DNA of 37,518 nt from Balneola sp. Lineage in GTDB: Bacteria > Bacteroidota > Rhodothermia > Balneolales > Balneolaceae. Shown piece by piece: positions 9,939-22,832 of the stretch. The position numbers and the translations under genes are program-made. The notes under the pieces were generated by a model. It made no database searches and was not told the DNA's origin. It saw nothing but the letters and a program-made list of their open reading frames with translations. Within the stretch, counting starts at the first letter, position 1. Each line of letters starts with the position of its first letter. The DNA is taken from assembly GCA_002720745.1 (NCBI GenBank), contig PBJO01000017.1, positions 1-37,518 on the forward strand. The letters are read 5' to 3'.

Positions 9939-10673
9939 ATGCGTATTTTATTCGTTCACTGCTTCATTTTTTGCGTCACCATCAGTGCTTGTGACAAATC
10001 TAAAACCAATGAGGATGATTAAGTGATAAATACCAGACATGCACTACCCAGTATTTCTTATTTAGCATTAGGGGACTCTTACACTATTGGAGAGGCAGTC
10101 GATTCTACTCAAAGTTGGCCTTTACAATTGGCTGATACCCTTCGCGAAGCCTACAATCTTCAAGTTAATAAACCTACAATTATAGCTACTACTGGCTGGA
10201 CCACTAATCAACTACAACGGGGAATCGAAGAAGCAGGTCTAGAAGAAAAATATGAGTTGATATCTCTACTAATAGGAGTTAATAATCAATATCAAGGGTA
10301 TGAATTCAAACAATTTGAAGAAGAATATGAAACGTTAATTAAATGGGCGATTCAACAATCTGTATACGGAGCATCAGGTATATTTGCCGTATCTATTCCC
10401 AACTATGGTGTCACTCCTTTTGGCCAAACAAGAGGAGAGGATGCGATCAGATCCGATTTGTTAGCTTATGACGCAAAAGCCAGAGAAATCTGCCAGCGTT
10501 TTGATATCCCATTTTTTGATATAACCCCTTTATCAGAACTTGCTAAAAATAATTCCGAGCTTATTGCCGAGGATCAATTGCATCCAAGCGGCCTTCAATA
10601 CGCAGAATGGGTCCGCTCATTTTCTAGTCATGTAGCTGATCTCATTTCAGTGTGGCCTGGATATAGTAGATAA
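9939..10673 (+). pseudogene. SGNH/GDSL hydrolase lipoprotein interrupted by an in-frame TAA
   Basis: Reading from ATG 9939 gives a typical lipoprotein signal peptide (MRILFVHCFIFC, then lipobox ISAC with Cys18) and a short polar linker KSKTNEDD. A TAA at 10020-10022 interrupts it. The next codon, GTG at 10023, continues in the same frame for 216 residues to 10673. That part is a complete SGNH hydrolase: YLALGDSYT holds the nucleophile Ser, then a GVNN block, and EDQLHPSG gives the Asp/His pair. If translated from GTG 10023 the enzyme would be cytoplasmic, without export signal, and that start has no clear ribosome site. One base change in the TAA would restore a 244-residue lipoprotein. It may be a fresh nonsense pseudogene, a sequencing error, or a readthrough product. 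The neighbour at 10725 is a different SGNH subfamily. Confidence 0.8.
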
Positions 10674-10724: not shown

Positions 10725-11396
10725 TTATTTAGAGGTATTACTGCTGATGAGTGCATCAACTAGATAGCCCCAAACATGTTCAGCTACTTTTATATGTCCT
10801 TCTTGGTTCGGATGAATTTGATCTGGTAAGTTGAGTTCTGGTACACCCCCTACCCCCTCTAATACAAAAGGGATAAATAACACATCGTTCTGCTGGGCTA
10901 ATTCCACATACATTTGTCGAAACTCAAGCGTATAATCAGCCCCTAAATTTGGGGGTACTTCCATACCTGCCAAGACGATTATTGCTTTGGGATATTTAGC
11001 TTGTACCTTATCTATAATGCCTTGAAGATTGGCCTTGGTTTGCTGTAAATTTAGGCCCCTTAGCCCATCATTACCCCCTAATTCTAACAAAAAAATATCG
11101 ACTCCTTGCTGTAGAACCCAATCAACTCTGCGAAGTCCACCAGCCGAAGTTTCACCGCTTAGTCCAGCATTAACAACAGTATAGTTTAACCCCAAAGAAT
11201 CGATTTTTTGCTGAATTAAAGCAGGAAAAGCTTTGTCTGGATTTAGTCCGTATCCAGCCGTTATACTATCCCCAAAGAATAAAATTTTTTCGGGGCTTTG
11301 CTGTGCTTGAACTCCCATAAAATTTTGTTGTACGATTAACAGCCCTACTATCCAAATAAAGCATTTTTCAATTGTACGAAGGTAGATTAAAAACAT
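10725..11396 (-). CDS. tesA: TesA-like periplasmic arylesterase / lysophospholipase (SGNH)
   Basis: SGNH hydrolase of the TesA / arylesterase subfamily, which cleaves acyl thioesters and esters in the periplasm. Blocks visible: FFGDSITAGYG (nucleophile Ser), NAGLSGETSAGG, LGGNDGLRG (oxyanion Asn), and LPDQIHPNQEGH (Asp/His). I prefer the ATG at 11396, giving 223 residues. Its N-terminus is a compact signal peptide (FIWIVGLLIVQQNFMGVQA, then Gln-rich mature start). A longer frame opens at 11438, adding 14 mostly polar residues; neither start has a strong Shine-Dalgarno. The gene is divergent from an ABC ATPase/permease pair, the same arrangement as tesA-ybbA-ybbP of E. coli, which supports the subfamily call. 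The exact substrate is open. Confidence 0.85.
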   Translation of the reverse strand: MFLIYLRTIEKCFIWIVGLLIVQQNFMGVQAQQSPEKILFFGDSITAGYGLNPDKAFPALIQQKIDSLGLNYTVVNAGLSGETSAGGLRRVDWVLQQGVDIFLLELGGNDGLRGLNLQQTKANLQGIIDKVQAKYPKAIIVLAGMEVPPNLGADYTLEFRQMYVELAQQNDVLFIPFVLEGVGGVPELNLPDQIHPNQEGHIKVAEHVWGYLVDALISSNTSK

Positions 11397-11610
11397 AAGA
11401 ACTGTGGTTAACAAATTGTGGTTATAATCATAGTACATTTTTTAGTATATAGAATGAATATTGCATATAGAATAAAACTTTTAAAGCACACCTAAACGAC
11501 ATAAAGTAAACTAGCCATAAATGGTATTATTAATCAGTAACCTTTAAGTCAATAAACAACATTCCGGCGTTGATAATAACTAAATTTTTCCGAAAATATT
11601 TAATTTTCAA

Positions 11611-12378
11611 ATGAGCACATCGGCAGCACTCCAAAAAGAGACTACCCTTTCTCCTATATTACAACTAGAGCATATAAATCGAAGCTTTAAAAGTGGTAAT
11701 TCTAATCTACATGTACTCAAAGACATCGGATTTAGTATATCAAAAGGAACTTCTTGTGCTATTGTTGGTCCGTCTGGTAGTGGAAAAACTACGTTGTTGG
11801 GAATTTGCGCGGGTTTAGACACTCCTGATTCAGGAAAAATACTGCTGAACGGAACTATTCTTAGCGAGATGGATGAAGACCAGCGAGCGGATATTCGTAA
11901 TAAAAAAGTAGGCTTCATTTTTCAAAACTTTCAACTCCTACCTACCCTTACAGCACTTGAAAATGTAATGGTCCCCTTAGAATTACGTGGTAGTGGTGGT
12001 GATGAAATTGAGCATAGAGCAATTGAACTGCTAACCAGTGTTGGCTTAAAAGATCGCTTAAGTCACTACCCTTCTCAACTCTCCGGTGGTGAGCAGCAGC
12101 GAGTTGCTATCGCTCGGGCCTTCATCAATGAACCGAGTGTACTCTTTGCAGATGAACCCACTGGTAATTTAGACTCCGAAACCGGTGACCAGGTTGAGGA
12201 ATTACTCTTTAATCTGAATAAGGAGAAACAAACCACCTTAGTCATTGTGACTCATGACCTACTACTTGCCCAGAAGTGCGAGCAAGAAATACGCTTGAGC
12301 CGAGGCGAAATAACCGAGCAACGCATAGGGAACATCTTCACGCAAAAGGACGGCAAAAACTCAATTCCGAAGCAGTGA
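11611..12378 (+). CDS. ybbA: YbbA-like ABC transporter ATPase (LolD/MacB type)
   Basis: ATP-binding subunit of an FtsX-type mechanotransmission ABC system. The 255 residues contain all family motifs: Walker A GPSGSGKT at 53-60, Q-loop in FIFQNFQLLP, signature LSGGEQQRVAIARA near 150, Walker B VLFADEPTGNLD, and the H-loop in VTHD. About 18 extra residues precede the domain. Its stop TGA overlaps the next ATG in TGATG at 12376-12380, so translation is coupled to the permease. It is divergent from the TesA-like esterase, as ybbA is from tesA in proteobacteria. LolD is the nearest alternative, but no LolC/E-like tandem is seen here. Confidence 0.9.
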   Translation: MSTSAALQKETTLSPILQLEHINRSFKSGNSNLHVLKDIGFSISKGTSCAIVGPSGSGKTTLLGICAGLDTPDSGKILLNGTILSEMDEDQRADIRNKKVGFIFQNFQLLPTLTALENVMVPLELRGSGGDEIEHRAIELLTSVGLKDRLSHYPSQLSGGEQQRVAIARAFINEPSVLFADEPTGNLDSETGDQVEELLFNLNKEKQTTLVIVTHDLLLAQKCEQEIRLSRGEITEQRIGNIFTQKDGKNSIPKQ

Positions 12379-14912
12379 TGAGCAAACCTTCCTCAAATAC
12401 TCTTTGGCTTATCAAAATGGCCTGGCGCGAATCTAGAACTCACCGCGTTAAACTAGCTTTGTTTCTCTTAGCTATTGTTATTGGAGTTGCTGCTCAGGTA
12501 TCCATAAGTTCATTGCGAGATAATCTGACTCAGAGTATTGATAGTCAATCTAAGGAGTTACTAGGAGCTGATTTGGAAGTGCGACATACTGCCCCTTTCG
12601 ACTCAGATTTAAACAGATTTTTAGATAGTCGATTCGATGAAAGTGCCGATATGGTTCGATTTGCTTCAATGGTGTCTGCTGATTCTGGATTTACTCGACT
12701 CTCACAAATATTTGCTTCTTCATCCACCTATCCTTTTTATGGAAGTATAAAAACCCAGCCAGCTCAAGCTTTTGAGACCTTTAAGCTTGAGAGGGGCGCA
12801 TTAATTGATCAGAGTGTATTAGATCAATTTAATTTGAGTGTAGGTGATACATTAACCATTGGCCTAGGTTCGTATCCCATTCTTGGAGGCATGCTGTCTA
12901 TACCTGGACAGGCACAAGCAGGATCTTTTTTTGGTCCTAGAATATTTATTCCTATTGACGGCTTAGAAGAAACCGGGTTGTTACAGCGGGGTTCAAGGGT
13001 TGAGTATCTTCGTTACTTTACCTACCATGATGATCAAAAACCAGAACAGATCCGGGCAGCATTGGATTCACTACAAGATCTGAGTTCTTTTGGCTTCGAT
13101 GATGTTGAGGAGCGTCGTTCGGAAGTGAGTTCGGCCATTGAGCAGTTGAGTAACTTCTTAAATATAATAGGATTCATAGCATTATTGCTGGGTGGGCTTG
13201 GTATAGGTAGTTCAATGTTTGTATACATTCGAGAAAAAGTACCACAGATTGCCATTCTTAAATGCGTTGGGGTTAAAGGTAAGGATGCTATACTAATTTT
13301 CTTATTTCAATCATTCGTTATGGGCATGATTGGTGCCGTTTTAGGGGCTTTTATAGGGGTAGTAATTCAACAAATATTACCCTTTTTAATTACTGATTTT
13401 TTACCGGTCGAATTACAATTATTTCTATCTTGGCCATCGGTCTTAGTTGGTATGGCAGTAGGGGTATTAGTCACCCTTTTATTTGCGGGGTTACCACTAG
13501 TCGATTTAACACAAATCTCCCCACTTCAAACCCTTCGCCGTAGTAGCATTACAAAATCAAACATTCTTAACCGAAGGCGATATTCAATAATAGGGCTAAT
13601 ATTATTAGGTGTCTGGGGATATGGCTTCTGGATGCTGGGAAGCGTTGAGGCCGCGTCCTGGTTCAGTTTGGGAGTAATAGTTCTTTCTAGTATGTTAATG
13701 TTCATTTCTCTGGGTTTAATGAAATTGACCCGTACACTTATCCGTCCGCGTTGGCCTTACGCAATCCGTCAAGGTCTATCCAATCTATATCGTCCTCAAA
13801 ATCAAACCACTACTCTCCTGCTTAGTTTCGGCTTGGGTATCACGCTCATAAGTTCACTCTACTTAACTCAAGATCTATTATTGAATGCGCTTAACTTCTC
13901 TACCTCCGATGATATCCCGAACGTTGCCTTCTATGATATCCAAGCCGACCAAAATAATAAGGTAAATCAGGTAATCAACGAACTAGGGTACGAAACACTT
14001 CAAAATGTACCCATTGTTACCATGCGCTTAGAAGCAATAGGAAATGCGAAAGTTTCCCAGATTTTAGCCGATACCTCACGAAGCGCACGACGTTGGGCTC
14101 TTCAAAGAGAATATCGTTCAACTTATAGAGATTCACTCATTGAAACCGAAAAACTGACTGAAGGTGAGTTTATTGGCCAATATGAGTTGAATATGGATAA
14201 TCTCGCTAATGATTATGTACCAATAACAGTAAGCTCAGATCTCATGGATAATCTAGCAGCAACAATTGGTGATACTCTTCGCTGGGACGTACAAGGAATT
14301 ACTATTTCTAGTACGATTGTGGGTATTCGTGAAGTTAGATGGGATGAACCTCAACCTAACTTCTTTGTGGTTTTCCCAGATGGAGTTCTTAATTATGCAC
14401 CTCAATTTTTTGCCACAACTGTGCGTACTTCGACTCGGTCGGAGGCACTAATCTTACAAGAACAAATTGTAAATCGCTATCCAAACATTTCTGCCTTAGA
14501 TATTGGTTTACTCATAGAGTCTTTTCGAGATTTCTTAAATCAAATTACATTTGTTATACAGTTTATTGGGCTTTTTAGCATTCTAACTGGGCTTATTGTT
14601 TTAGCGGGTGCTGCTGCAAGCTCTCGATTTCAGAGGCTAAAAGAAGCACAACTCTTGCGAGTATTGGGCGCTCAAAAACAAATTATAAAACGAATTTTGT
14701 TTATCGAATTTTTTGCAGTCGGTGGCCTGTCTTCTCTACTTGGTGTAGGCCTTTCACTTGGGGTTAGCTATTTGGTTGGATATTTCGTGTTCGATTTAGT
14801 ACTTCAACCAAGTTGGGGTATACTATCTCTTGAAATTCTTATTATCATAGGACTAGTGACTTTGGTAGGGGCTACAAATTCAAGTATATCAGTTGATCGT
14901 GAAAGAGCTTAA
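12378..14912 (+). CDS. ybbP: YbbP-like FtsX-family ABC permease
   Basis: Large membrane partner of the preceding ATPase, 844 residues from the ATG at 12378. Starting upstream at 12276 would add 34 residues read from inside ybbA and is unlikely. The layout is one N-terminal membrane helix (LALFLLAIVIGVAAQVS), a long periplasmic domain, and three helices with an FtsX-like signature (PQIAILKCVGVKGKD). Another helix pair follows, then a second periplasmic domain, and a last FtsX-type three-helix block (AQLLRVLGAQKQI). Such twin FtsX permeases do not import small molecules but move or gate envelope components; YbbP's role is not settled. Stop at 14912, then a bidirectional terminator at 15028-15055. 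Confidence 0.9.
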   Translation: MSKPSSNTLWLIKMAWRESRTHRVKLALFLLAIVIGVAAQVSISSLRDNLTQSIDSQSKELLGADLEVRHTAPFDSDLNRFLDSRFDESADMVRFASMVSADSGFTRLSQIFASSSTYPFYGSIKTQPAQAFETFKLERGALIDQSVLDQFNLSVGDTLTIGLGSYPILGGMLSIPGQAQAGSFFGPRIFIPIDGLEETGLLQRGSRVEYLRYFTYHDDQKPEQIRAALDSLQDLSSFGFDDVEERRSEVSSAIEQLSNFLNIIGFIALLLGGLGIGSSMFVYIREKVPQIAILKCVGVKGKDAILIFLFQSFVMGMIGAVLGAFIGVVIQQILPFLITDFLPVELQLFLSWPSVLVGMAVGVLVTLLFAGLPLVDLTQISPLQTLRRSSITKSNILNRRRYSIIGLILLGVWGYGFWMLGSVEAASWFSLGVIVLSSMLMFISLGLMKLTRTLIRPRWPYAIRQGLSNLYRPQNQTTTLLLSFGLGITLISSLYLTQDLLLNALNFSTSDDIPNVAFYDIQADQNNKVNQVINELGYETLQNVPIVTMRLEAIGNAKVSQILADTSRSARRWALQREYRSTYRDSLIETEKLTEGEFIGQYELNMDNLANDYVPITVSSDLMDNLAATIGDTLRWDVQGITISSTIVGIREVRWDEPQPNFFVVFPDGVLNYAPQFFATTVRTSTRSEALILQEQIVNRYPNISALDIGLLIESFRDFLNQITFVIQFIGLFSILTGLIVLAGAAASSRFQRLKEAQLLRVLGAQKQIIKRILFIEFFAVGGLSSLLGVGLSLGVSYLVGYFVFDLVLQPSWGILSLEILIIIGLVTLVGATNSSISVDRERA

Positions 14913-16658: not shown

Positions 16659-17864
16659 TCACCCTCTTGATGAACGACTAGATGTAGAGCGTCCAGTAGA
16701 TTTTGATGCGCTTGAGCTTGACCGTGTTGAACTTTTAACAGCGCCTGAGCTACGGTTAGAGCTGCCATTGGACCGACCTACACTCGAAGAAGATCCAGAA
16801 GATCTGCCTGTTGAACGACTTCCTGAACTTCGGACTGTTCCTTTAGAATTACTACCACTGCTAATTGAAGATTGAACCGCCCGCCCTGTTGATCGAGTAT
16901 TCCCTATACTATTGTATATACTTCTAGATCGGGTAGATGAGGATGGCGCACTTTCCCAACCTGAGCGAGCATTTTTTGAAGCAGAACGAGTGTAAATGGC
17001 CTTTGAAGATGCATTTTTGCCAGTTCCCCTAGTTAATCCCGAGTTGCTTGAACTACTTAGCCCATAACGTCTTGCTCCACGTAGTCTGTCTTGTGTAGAG
17101 CTTTTATTTGCTTGTTCTATGAAAACAGTGTTCCCGCCATAAGGTGAATATCCCCAATATGCTATATGTCCATAATATCCGTATCGGTATGAGTTAAATC
17201 CGAAAAAGCCATTCCAACTATGATAAAATGGATCATAAGGACTGAACCAAGACCAGCCACCATATCCACCCCATGCCCAATAAGAGCTTGGACTCCAAGC
17301 ACTGTAATATCCATAGTATCCTCCCCACCATCCTACATGCAATCTCCACCAGCGCTTAGCATACCAATTACCCCAAAAATCATTATCAAACCAACTATCT
17401 CGATACCCGCGGTTATAACCACGGTCATATCCACGATCAAAGCCTTTCTCATATCCTTGATCGTAAGTAAAGTCATGACCATTCACCTGAAAATTGCGCT
17501 CATAATTAGCAGAGTTGAGAACATCTATGTAATGCTCATCATACCATTGCTCAGCTTCATAGTCTTTATAATAAATGCTTTGTTCGGTGAAATCATTACT
17601 GTTTGTTTCGTCTTTCGAATTTGAAGTAGATCCATTTTGACCATAAAGATTTTTACTATAATTTGAATTTGACGTTTGCTTAGTAGATGACCAATCATAT
17701 CCCAAGTATGTTCGCTCATCATCGTCCCAAGAATAATATTCATCTCCCTTAACCTGTGTTGGACGATCTAGATCATATGACAATTGCATCTGTGTATAGC
17801 ATCCCGTATTGAACCATCCGAATACTAACGTAAAGAGTATAACTAGAAAAGAGTGGAATTTCAT
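16659..17864 (-). CDS. Tyr/Gly/Trp-rich and Ser/Arg-rich probable lipoprotein, function unknown
   Basis: I do not recognise a named family. The 401-residue product begins with a signal-like segment (FLVILFTLVFGWF) ending in NTGC, an imperfect lipobox with Cys near residue 22. Then come an Asp/Ser/Asn-rich linker, a set of GY repeats (GYEKGFDRGYDRGYNRGYRD), and an aromatic block rich in Tyr, Trp and Gly. The C-terminal third, about 130 residues, is almost only Ser, Arg, Gly, Thr and Lys and strongly basic. GGAGG at 17869-17873 lies four bases before the ATG, one of the best ribosome sites in the window, so high expression is plausible. It is coupled to the FadL-like gene and lies 88 bases after the response regulator. 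A surface-exposed, matrix-binding or structural role is only a guess. Confidence 0.65.
   Translation of the reverse strand: MKFHSFLVILFTLVFGWFNTGCYTQMQLSYDLDRPTQVKGDEYYSWDDDERTYLGYDWSSTKQTSNSNYSKNLYGQNGSTSNSKDETNSNDFTEQSIYYKDYEAEQWYDEHYIDVLNSANYERNFQVNGHDFTYDQGYEKGFDRGYDRGYNRGYRDSWFDNDFWGNWYAKRWWRLHVGWWGGYYGYYSAWSPSSYWAWGGYGGWSWFSPYDPFYHSWNGFFGFNSYRYGYYGHIAYWGYSPYGGNTVFIEQANKSSTQDRLRGARRYGLSSSSNSGLTRGTGKNASSKAIYTRSASKNARSGWESAPSSSTRSRSIYNSIGNTRSTGRAVQSSISSGSNSKGTVRSSGSRSTGRSSGSSSSVGRSNGSSNRSSGAVKSSTRSSSSASKSTGRSTSSRSSRG
17400..17465 (-). repeat. Imperfect 12-bp tandem repeat encoding GY-x-R units
   Basis: About five 12-base units code for the run GYEKGFDRGYDRGYNRGY within the Tyr/Gly-rich lipoprotein. 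Units share an ATATCC-like core and differ at a few positions. Such arrays expand or shrink by slippage in whole codons (four residues per unit), so length may vary between strains. Confidence 0.6.
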
Positions 17865-21638: not shown

Positions 21639-21710
21639 ATTATAATATACTAAGCTAAGTATTATTAGGACGACATATATTGCTACTTTCGATTCGAAAT
21701 AATAAAAAAT

Positions 21711-22832
21711 ATGAGTACTTCAGCACTTTCTATTAATCTTCGTAGCTATGACAAGGAGATCAAAAAATTTTTGGAAAAAGTACTTATAGGTAGCCTTGGT
21801 GGTATTCAATTTCGGGTACATAGGCGAAAAAGTACGAACCATAGAGATGAAAAAGTACATTATCTATGTTTGTCTAGAAATTTGAAACTTATAGGTGTTG
21901 TAGGACTTTTAGACAGAACCGATATAACTGGCAAGCAGTGGCTCTATATTAGGTATCTACATGTTAATGGAACCCTATATTATCCCAGGCGTAACAAAAA
22001 AACTGCGCTTGGTGGGGATGCATTTGCCAGTTATGTTCAACGTAACCCTAGCGGCAGTGATGGAGGTCGTGACCAGCGCAGGTCCATACTTCAACAGGTA
22101 CTTCTTAAGCATTTAAAAGAATATACAAAAAGCATAACTGCCTCGCATACCCTTCCAGCTTATGCATTTATATAAGATAAGAATCATCAATCTATAAGGC
22201 TTTGTAACCGATTTGGTTTTGAGAAGGTTCAAGAGATTTACACATTATTATTCCACCGTTTTAAACCATCGTTTCACACACAAATATGCATAATCACGCC
22301 CGAAAAAATACATGGGATGAGAGATACATTAGATCAATTCTACAAGGCTTATGACGCCTATCACACCAGAGGGCTTAACGAACAGGGATATTTTATAGGA
22401 TACAGGGTGAATGGAAAATGGGTAGCTGTAGCACGAATAATGAGATAATCGTGGGATATTGAAGGCCTTCCAGAATATCTTTCGTTTTTACGAAAATGAC
22501 GGATTGATCGCTGGCCTTATCTTCACCAATTGATTCCAGGACGCGTATTCCACTTTATATCAGCTGACTATTTTTGGTTTAAACAGGGATATGAAAAATA
22601 TCTTGAACAAATTATGAAGCATGCCATAGCCAACGAGAAGGTTCATACTGCAACGATTTGGATGTCTAAGGAAAGTCCCCATATTAAAATACTGCGAAAG
22701 ACTATTTCATGGGGATATTTGAATAAGCTTGGGAATTCATGTAGCATTTCTCTGGTGATGCGAGTATTTATGAATAATAGTCAAGAATCAAAGAAAAAAA
22801 TGATTACAACAAAATGGGTCCTGTTTTCATAA
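21711..22832 (+). pseudogene. Two-domain GNAT-like acetyltransferase interrupted by three in-frame stops
   Basis: A single reading frame runs from ATG 21711 to TAA 22830-22832 (374 codons with final stop) but is broken by TAA at 22173-22175, TAA at 22446-22448 and TGA at 22497-22499. No frameshift is needed: the frame stays open and protein-like between the stops. The stretch after the first stop contains a typical GNAT signature, NHQSIRLCNRFGFEKV. The later part (HFISADYFWFKQGYEKYLEQ, then WGYLNKLGN) resembles the second half of long GNAT-like proteins of about 370 residues in this phylum, judged from memory. It most likely encodes a lost N-acetyltransferase. The neighbours are unrelated. 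A readthrough gene or assembly errors are the alternatives; three stops make the latter less likely. Confidence 0.75.

Follow-up and report, generated by a model that had tools for sequence, protein, structure and literature searches.

A lipoprotein signal and an intact SGNH hydrolase domain parted by one in-frame TAA in a Balneola genome: a probable recent nonsense allele

Introduction

When a lipoprotein signal and a complete SGNH hydrolase domain share one reading frame and are parted only by a single TAA, is the stop a lesion, a signal that is read through, a wrong base, or a junction at which translation starts afresh? A locus of this kind lies in a 37,518-nucleotide stretch from a marine member of the Balneolaceae, Balneola sp. 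(hereafter the window, meaning this whole stretch of DNA), which is contig C17 of a draft genome of 2.17 Mb in 25 contigs that is 98.6% complete. Here, we compare the locus with its relatives within the genus and the family, examine the predicted enzyme, and weigh the explanations for the stop.

An in-frame TAA between a lipoprotein signal and an SGNH domain

Translated on the plus strand, 9939–10673 reads MRILFVHCFIFCVTISACDKSKTNEDD, a stop, and then VINTRHALPSISYLALGDSYTIGEAVD, continuing through DQLHPSG to a C-terminal WPGYSR before the terminal stop, in a single frame throughout. The locus and its neighbourhood contain the following features.

9939..9992, plus strand: lipoprotein signal peptide MRILFVHCFIFCVTISAC, with lipobox ISAC and Cys codon 9990–9992; found in all congeners, with the Cys at the same position
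9993..10019, plus strand: linker DKSKTNEDD, nine codons 3' of the lipobox Cys, from translation and congener comparison
10020..10022, plus strand: in-frame TAA; a Tyr codon in G002 (TAT), G005 (TAC) and G004 (TAC), and one for Phe or Asn in further close congeners
10023..10673, plus strand: SGNH/GDSL hydrolase domain, 216 codons and a stop, from PF13472, AlphaFold and Foldseek
10725..11438, minus strand: TesA-like second SGNH gene, convergent and intact; a neighbour in congeners too
11611..14912, plus strand: YbbA-like ATPase and YbbP-like permease, adjoining the tesA-like gene, from profile matches and congener comparison

The first-pass annotation, made from the letters of the window, had described a lipoprotein signal from ATG 9939 with lipobox ISAC, followed after the TAA by a full SGNH domain in the same frame, and the translation and profile match agree with both; the linker, which it put at eight residues, has nine. 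In a bacterial lipoprotein the signal and lipobox are continuous with the mature protein, as they are in the congeners, whereas here the frame ends nine residues past the lipobox. Directly 3' of the TAA and in the same frame stands GTG 10023, a possible reinitiation start, which also opens the 216-residue entry in the list of open reading frames; the SGNH frame closes at TAA 10671–10673.

Downstream of the stop, the Pfam profile Lipase_GDSL_2 (PF13472) matches with an E-value of 6.4e-22 over profile positions 1–176 of 178, and its score of 79.3 bits, against a curated cut-off of 32.9, places the product in the SGNH/GDSL family. In a 28-sequence alignment, G17, D18 and S19, G85, V86 and N87, and D184, L186 and H187 are invariant, comprising the Ser in GDS, the Asn in the block III motif and the Asp-x-x-His expected of an SGNH catalytic site, so that the SGNH blocks are as intact as the first reading had supposed. 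An AlphaFold model of the GTG 10023-started product, computed with 28 aligned relatives as input, has a mean pLDDT of 91.6, with residues 1–4 as the sole segment below 50, and its Foldseek neighbours are SGNH esterases such as 7c23 and TesA-type thioesterases (TesA 1jrl). Given the near-full profile match, the model confidence and the Foldseek placement, the domain 3' of the stop is complete. Against the TesA equivalog NF007819 the product scored 20.1 bits, where the cut-off is 270, and it was not assigned to that group.

The stop is private to one genome among its relatives

The genus is represented by nine genomes, including that of the window, and the gene is present in each; the nearest named relatives are Balneolaceae UBA2956, the uncultured Balneola sp. 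AG-896-M03 and M30B45. All eight congeners have an open frame that starts at an ATG, encodes a hydrophobic signal with a Cys at the lipobox site, and continues into the enzyme; a family in which every relative begins at the equivalent of GTG 10023 and lacks a signal, the outcome that would have spoken against the first reading, was not seen. Because relatives at 91–92% protein identity (G002 at 92% and G005 at 91%, the two closest) cross the codon without a stop or an indel, the frame shared on either side of the TAA is, on this alignment, not a product of chance.

The site of the TAA is occupied by TAT in G002, TAC in G005 and G004, TTC in G008 and AAT in G001 and G006; the linker around it is different in G003 and G007. 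A sense codon in close relatives had been suggested as a check, and one is found, encoding Tyr in the two nearest. One codon further on, the window and G005 share GTG, G002 has GTA, and G004, G001, G008 and G006 all have ATG. Across the family, 37 of the 92 genomes searched contain the gene, and at the 21 additional loci with N-termini read, a hydrophobic start leads into the enzyme without a stop. Given the Tyr codon in the closest relatives and the lack of a stop in the family loci read, the TAA goes back to one substitution that, of the genomes examined, only the window's carries. Viral contigs were searched for another strain of the species and yielded none.

The frame is interrupted where its orthologues are intact, as in a pseudogene. 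Young bacterial pseudogenes likewise differ from their intact orthologues by one in-frame stop of their own and are otherwise undamaged; here, however, the stop precedes the catalytic domain and adjoins an in-frame GTG, from which the domain might yet be translated. The Balneolaceae lipoprotein SGNH hydrolases of UBA2956, AG-896-M03 and M30B45 have the same locus beside tesA-like and ybbA/ybbP-like genes, the same signal and the same domain, but a sense codon where the window has TAA between the two. This gene order (SGNH, tesA-like, ybbA/ybbP-like) is identical in G005, G002 and G004, and the SGNH gene pair recurs in the remaining congeners.

Elsewhere in the family, the SGNH orthologue of G027 (L021) reads LLFLGAIENESC, against LLFLGSCEDESS in its relative G022 (L017), and its lipobox Cys seems to have been lost or shifted.

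Interrupted genes elsewhere in the genome

We compared 400 kb of contig C10, together with the window, against G005, and found internal stops in three of about 215 shared genes, the SGNH gene counted, with one further gene split. A GNAT-like gene in the window (21660–22814, also given as 21711–22814, plus strand) has TAA 22173, TAA 22446 and TGA 22497 where G005 has Glu, His and Trp; it is intact in both G005 and G002, the alignment contains no frameshift, and on this comparison it is a clear pseudogene. On contig C10 of the window's genome (G000), the minus-strand gene at 49037–49696 (L119) is 74% identical to a G005 gene, carries several in-frame stops, and is probably another pseudogene. 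A second SGNH gene on the same contig (338665–339687, minus strand; L103) has an in-frame TAA within the domain, at a Leu codon (TTA) of G005; it was left out of the count, its G005 counterpart having no ATG at the expected place, and no close copy of it was found in the other congeners.

The reverse comparison showed stops in four G005 genes, three of them near the N-terminus, and these three look like over-extended start calls in the window's genome rather than decay. Since two more of the roughly 215 compared genes carry such stops, nonsense-interrupted genes are an occasional, ordinary occurrence in this lineage. Additionally, the window gene at 16659–17864 (minus strand) matches its 437-residue G005 counterpart only through residues 9–364; the C-terminal part is unaligned, and this end differs between close relatives.

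Substitutions in the domain after the stop

Along the branch leading to the window, the region 3' of the stop has acquired 9 replacement and 5 silent changes, compared with replacement-to-silent counts of 7:7 for G002 and 10:9 for G005. Neutrality is rejected for the pooled sister branches (17:16, P 0.0008), while the window's 9:5, with its few changes, differs significantly neither from neutrality (P 0.18) nor from the sisters' counts (Fisher P 0.53). Private substitutions have a mean profile log-odds of −2.4 in the window against −1.0 and −1.2 in the sisters (about −1.1), a difference that is not significant (P 0.10) but places them at rather more conserved positions, and is at most suggestive of relaxed constraint on the domain. 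Because the changes are too few, neither the profile score nor the silent and replacement counts can separate decay from retained function.

Alternative explanations for the stop

A wrong consensus base, a chimeric draft assembly or a minor allele within it would leave the organism's own gene intact, and would account for one aberrant base in one draft genome of 25 contigs with the remainder of the gene undamaged. We consider this improbable, as real decay occurs in the same genome, where other genes are interrupted by nonsense codons, some by several; moreover, none of the genome's ABC_tran matches, among the matches listed, has an internal stop, and no frameshift split was flagged in any window gene that G005 also has. 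Programmed readthrough or a reassigned TAA, which would yield the full lipoprotein, fits the frame common to two intact halves, but is very improbable. Readthrough calls for a stop and context conserved in orthologues, and the stop is absent from every relative examined; it also calls for a suppressor tRNA for UAA, and the anticodon TTA occurs in none of the 31 tRNAs found, in a draft that may miss some. Other interrupting stops in the genome, TGA among them, replace codons for Leu, Glu, His and Trp, and with amino acids so unrelated, a single meaning for TAA is a poor fit; stop reassignment or suppression was rejected on the tRNA set and on this mixture of amino acids. Thus, where the first-pass annotation left recent decay, readthrough and a wrong base side by side, the relatives' Tyr codon favours a recent private nonsense mutation, and the unconserved stop and the lack of a TTA anticodon among the 31 tRNAs go against readthrough.

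A different possibility is that ribosomes finishing at the TAA start again at GTG 10023, giving a cytoplasmic SGNH enzyme of 216 residues that lacks a signal but is functional, in which case the location of the enzyme would have changed without its being destroyed. Reinitiation is reported to be efficient at overlaps and very short stop-to-start distances and to drop sharply by 14–38 nt (PMC10666635), which fits the adjacency of TAA and GTG at a distance of 0 nt. This GTG is the sole in-frame ATG, GTG or TTG between the stop and the domain, the product started from it is predicted to fold completely, and, as a post hoc point, of 112 possible nonsense changes 13 fall upstream of the domain and two directly before the GTG. 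A signal-less form is not absurd for the SGNH family by analogy, because gammaproteobacterial homologues (Pseudoxanthomonas, Rhodanobacter) and one from a Chitinophagales MAG seem to begin just before the domain, with no signal. Those of Pseudoxanthomonas and Rhodanobacter have the same domain at 42–46% identity and start a few residues before YLALGDSYT; they apparently have no upstream signal, whereas the window has one, severed by the stop. On the other side, the start codon is not conserved, being GTA in G002, and the window-branch substitutions tend, though not significantly, towards conserved positions. A GAGG lies 8 nt upstream of GTG 10023, but carries little weight because Shine-Dalgarno-like motifs are not enriched before the starts of 269 long open reading frames from G000 C10 and the window (26/269, against 20/269 and 29/269 at control positions), as reported for Bacteroidetes, and a Shine-Dalgarno-driven start was accordingly discounted. 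The 16S gene, sought for an anti-Shine-Dalgarno check of its 3' end, is only partial and lies at a contig end. In Flavobacterium johnsoniae, A at −3 and −6 is reported as favourable (PMC6847099), but GTG 10023 has T and G at these positions. A literature search for natural stop-start relocations yielded nothing nearer than general work on termination and reinitiation. Overall, GTG 10023, which the first-pass annotation had not considered as a reinitiation site, would offer a plausible route to the cytoplasmic enzyme that it foresaw in the absence of readthrough, and we regard such relocation as unlikely; the specific proposal that one mutation created a TAAGTG stop-start junction and so made a working enzyme of the cytoplasm out of a lipoprotein esterase of the envelope, caught soon after its origin, strikes us as rather improbable.

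Discussion

The observation is real, and our preferred explanation, to which we give a probability of about 0.62 on sequence comparison, is an ordinary recent nonsense allele in an ancestrally intact lipoprotein gene. One recent substitution on the window genome's own branch would have turned a TAY Tyr codon into TAA, and this nonsense codon would now separate the lipoprotein signal from the SGNH esterase domain. Ribosomes from ATG 9939 would read 27 codons before the stop and release just the signal peptide with a nine-residue tail; while the altered codon and the uninterrupted genes of the relatives are directly seen, we infer that the exported, lipid-anchored esterase has been lost. Counting against decay, the gene has no second lesion apart from the TAA, and all catalytic blocks are intact. 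A recent date for the change would explain the intact domain, as would continued production of some enzyme by reinitiation at GTG 10023. The convergent TesA-like SGNH gene may cover for the lost esterase and so make its loss tolerable.

A nonsense allele of this kind would have little import beyond annotation, where automatic calls from GTG 10023 would show a cytoplasmic esterase and mask the lost export signal. If reinitiation at that GTG were true, the locus would be a clean example of one base sufficing to shift an enzyme out of the envelope into the cytoplasm, the same step that divides the signal-bearing from the signal-less branches of the family.
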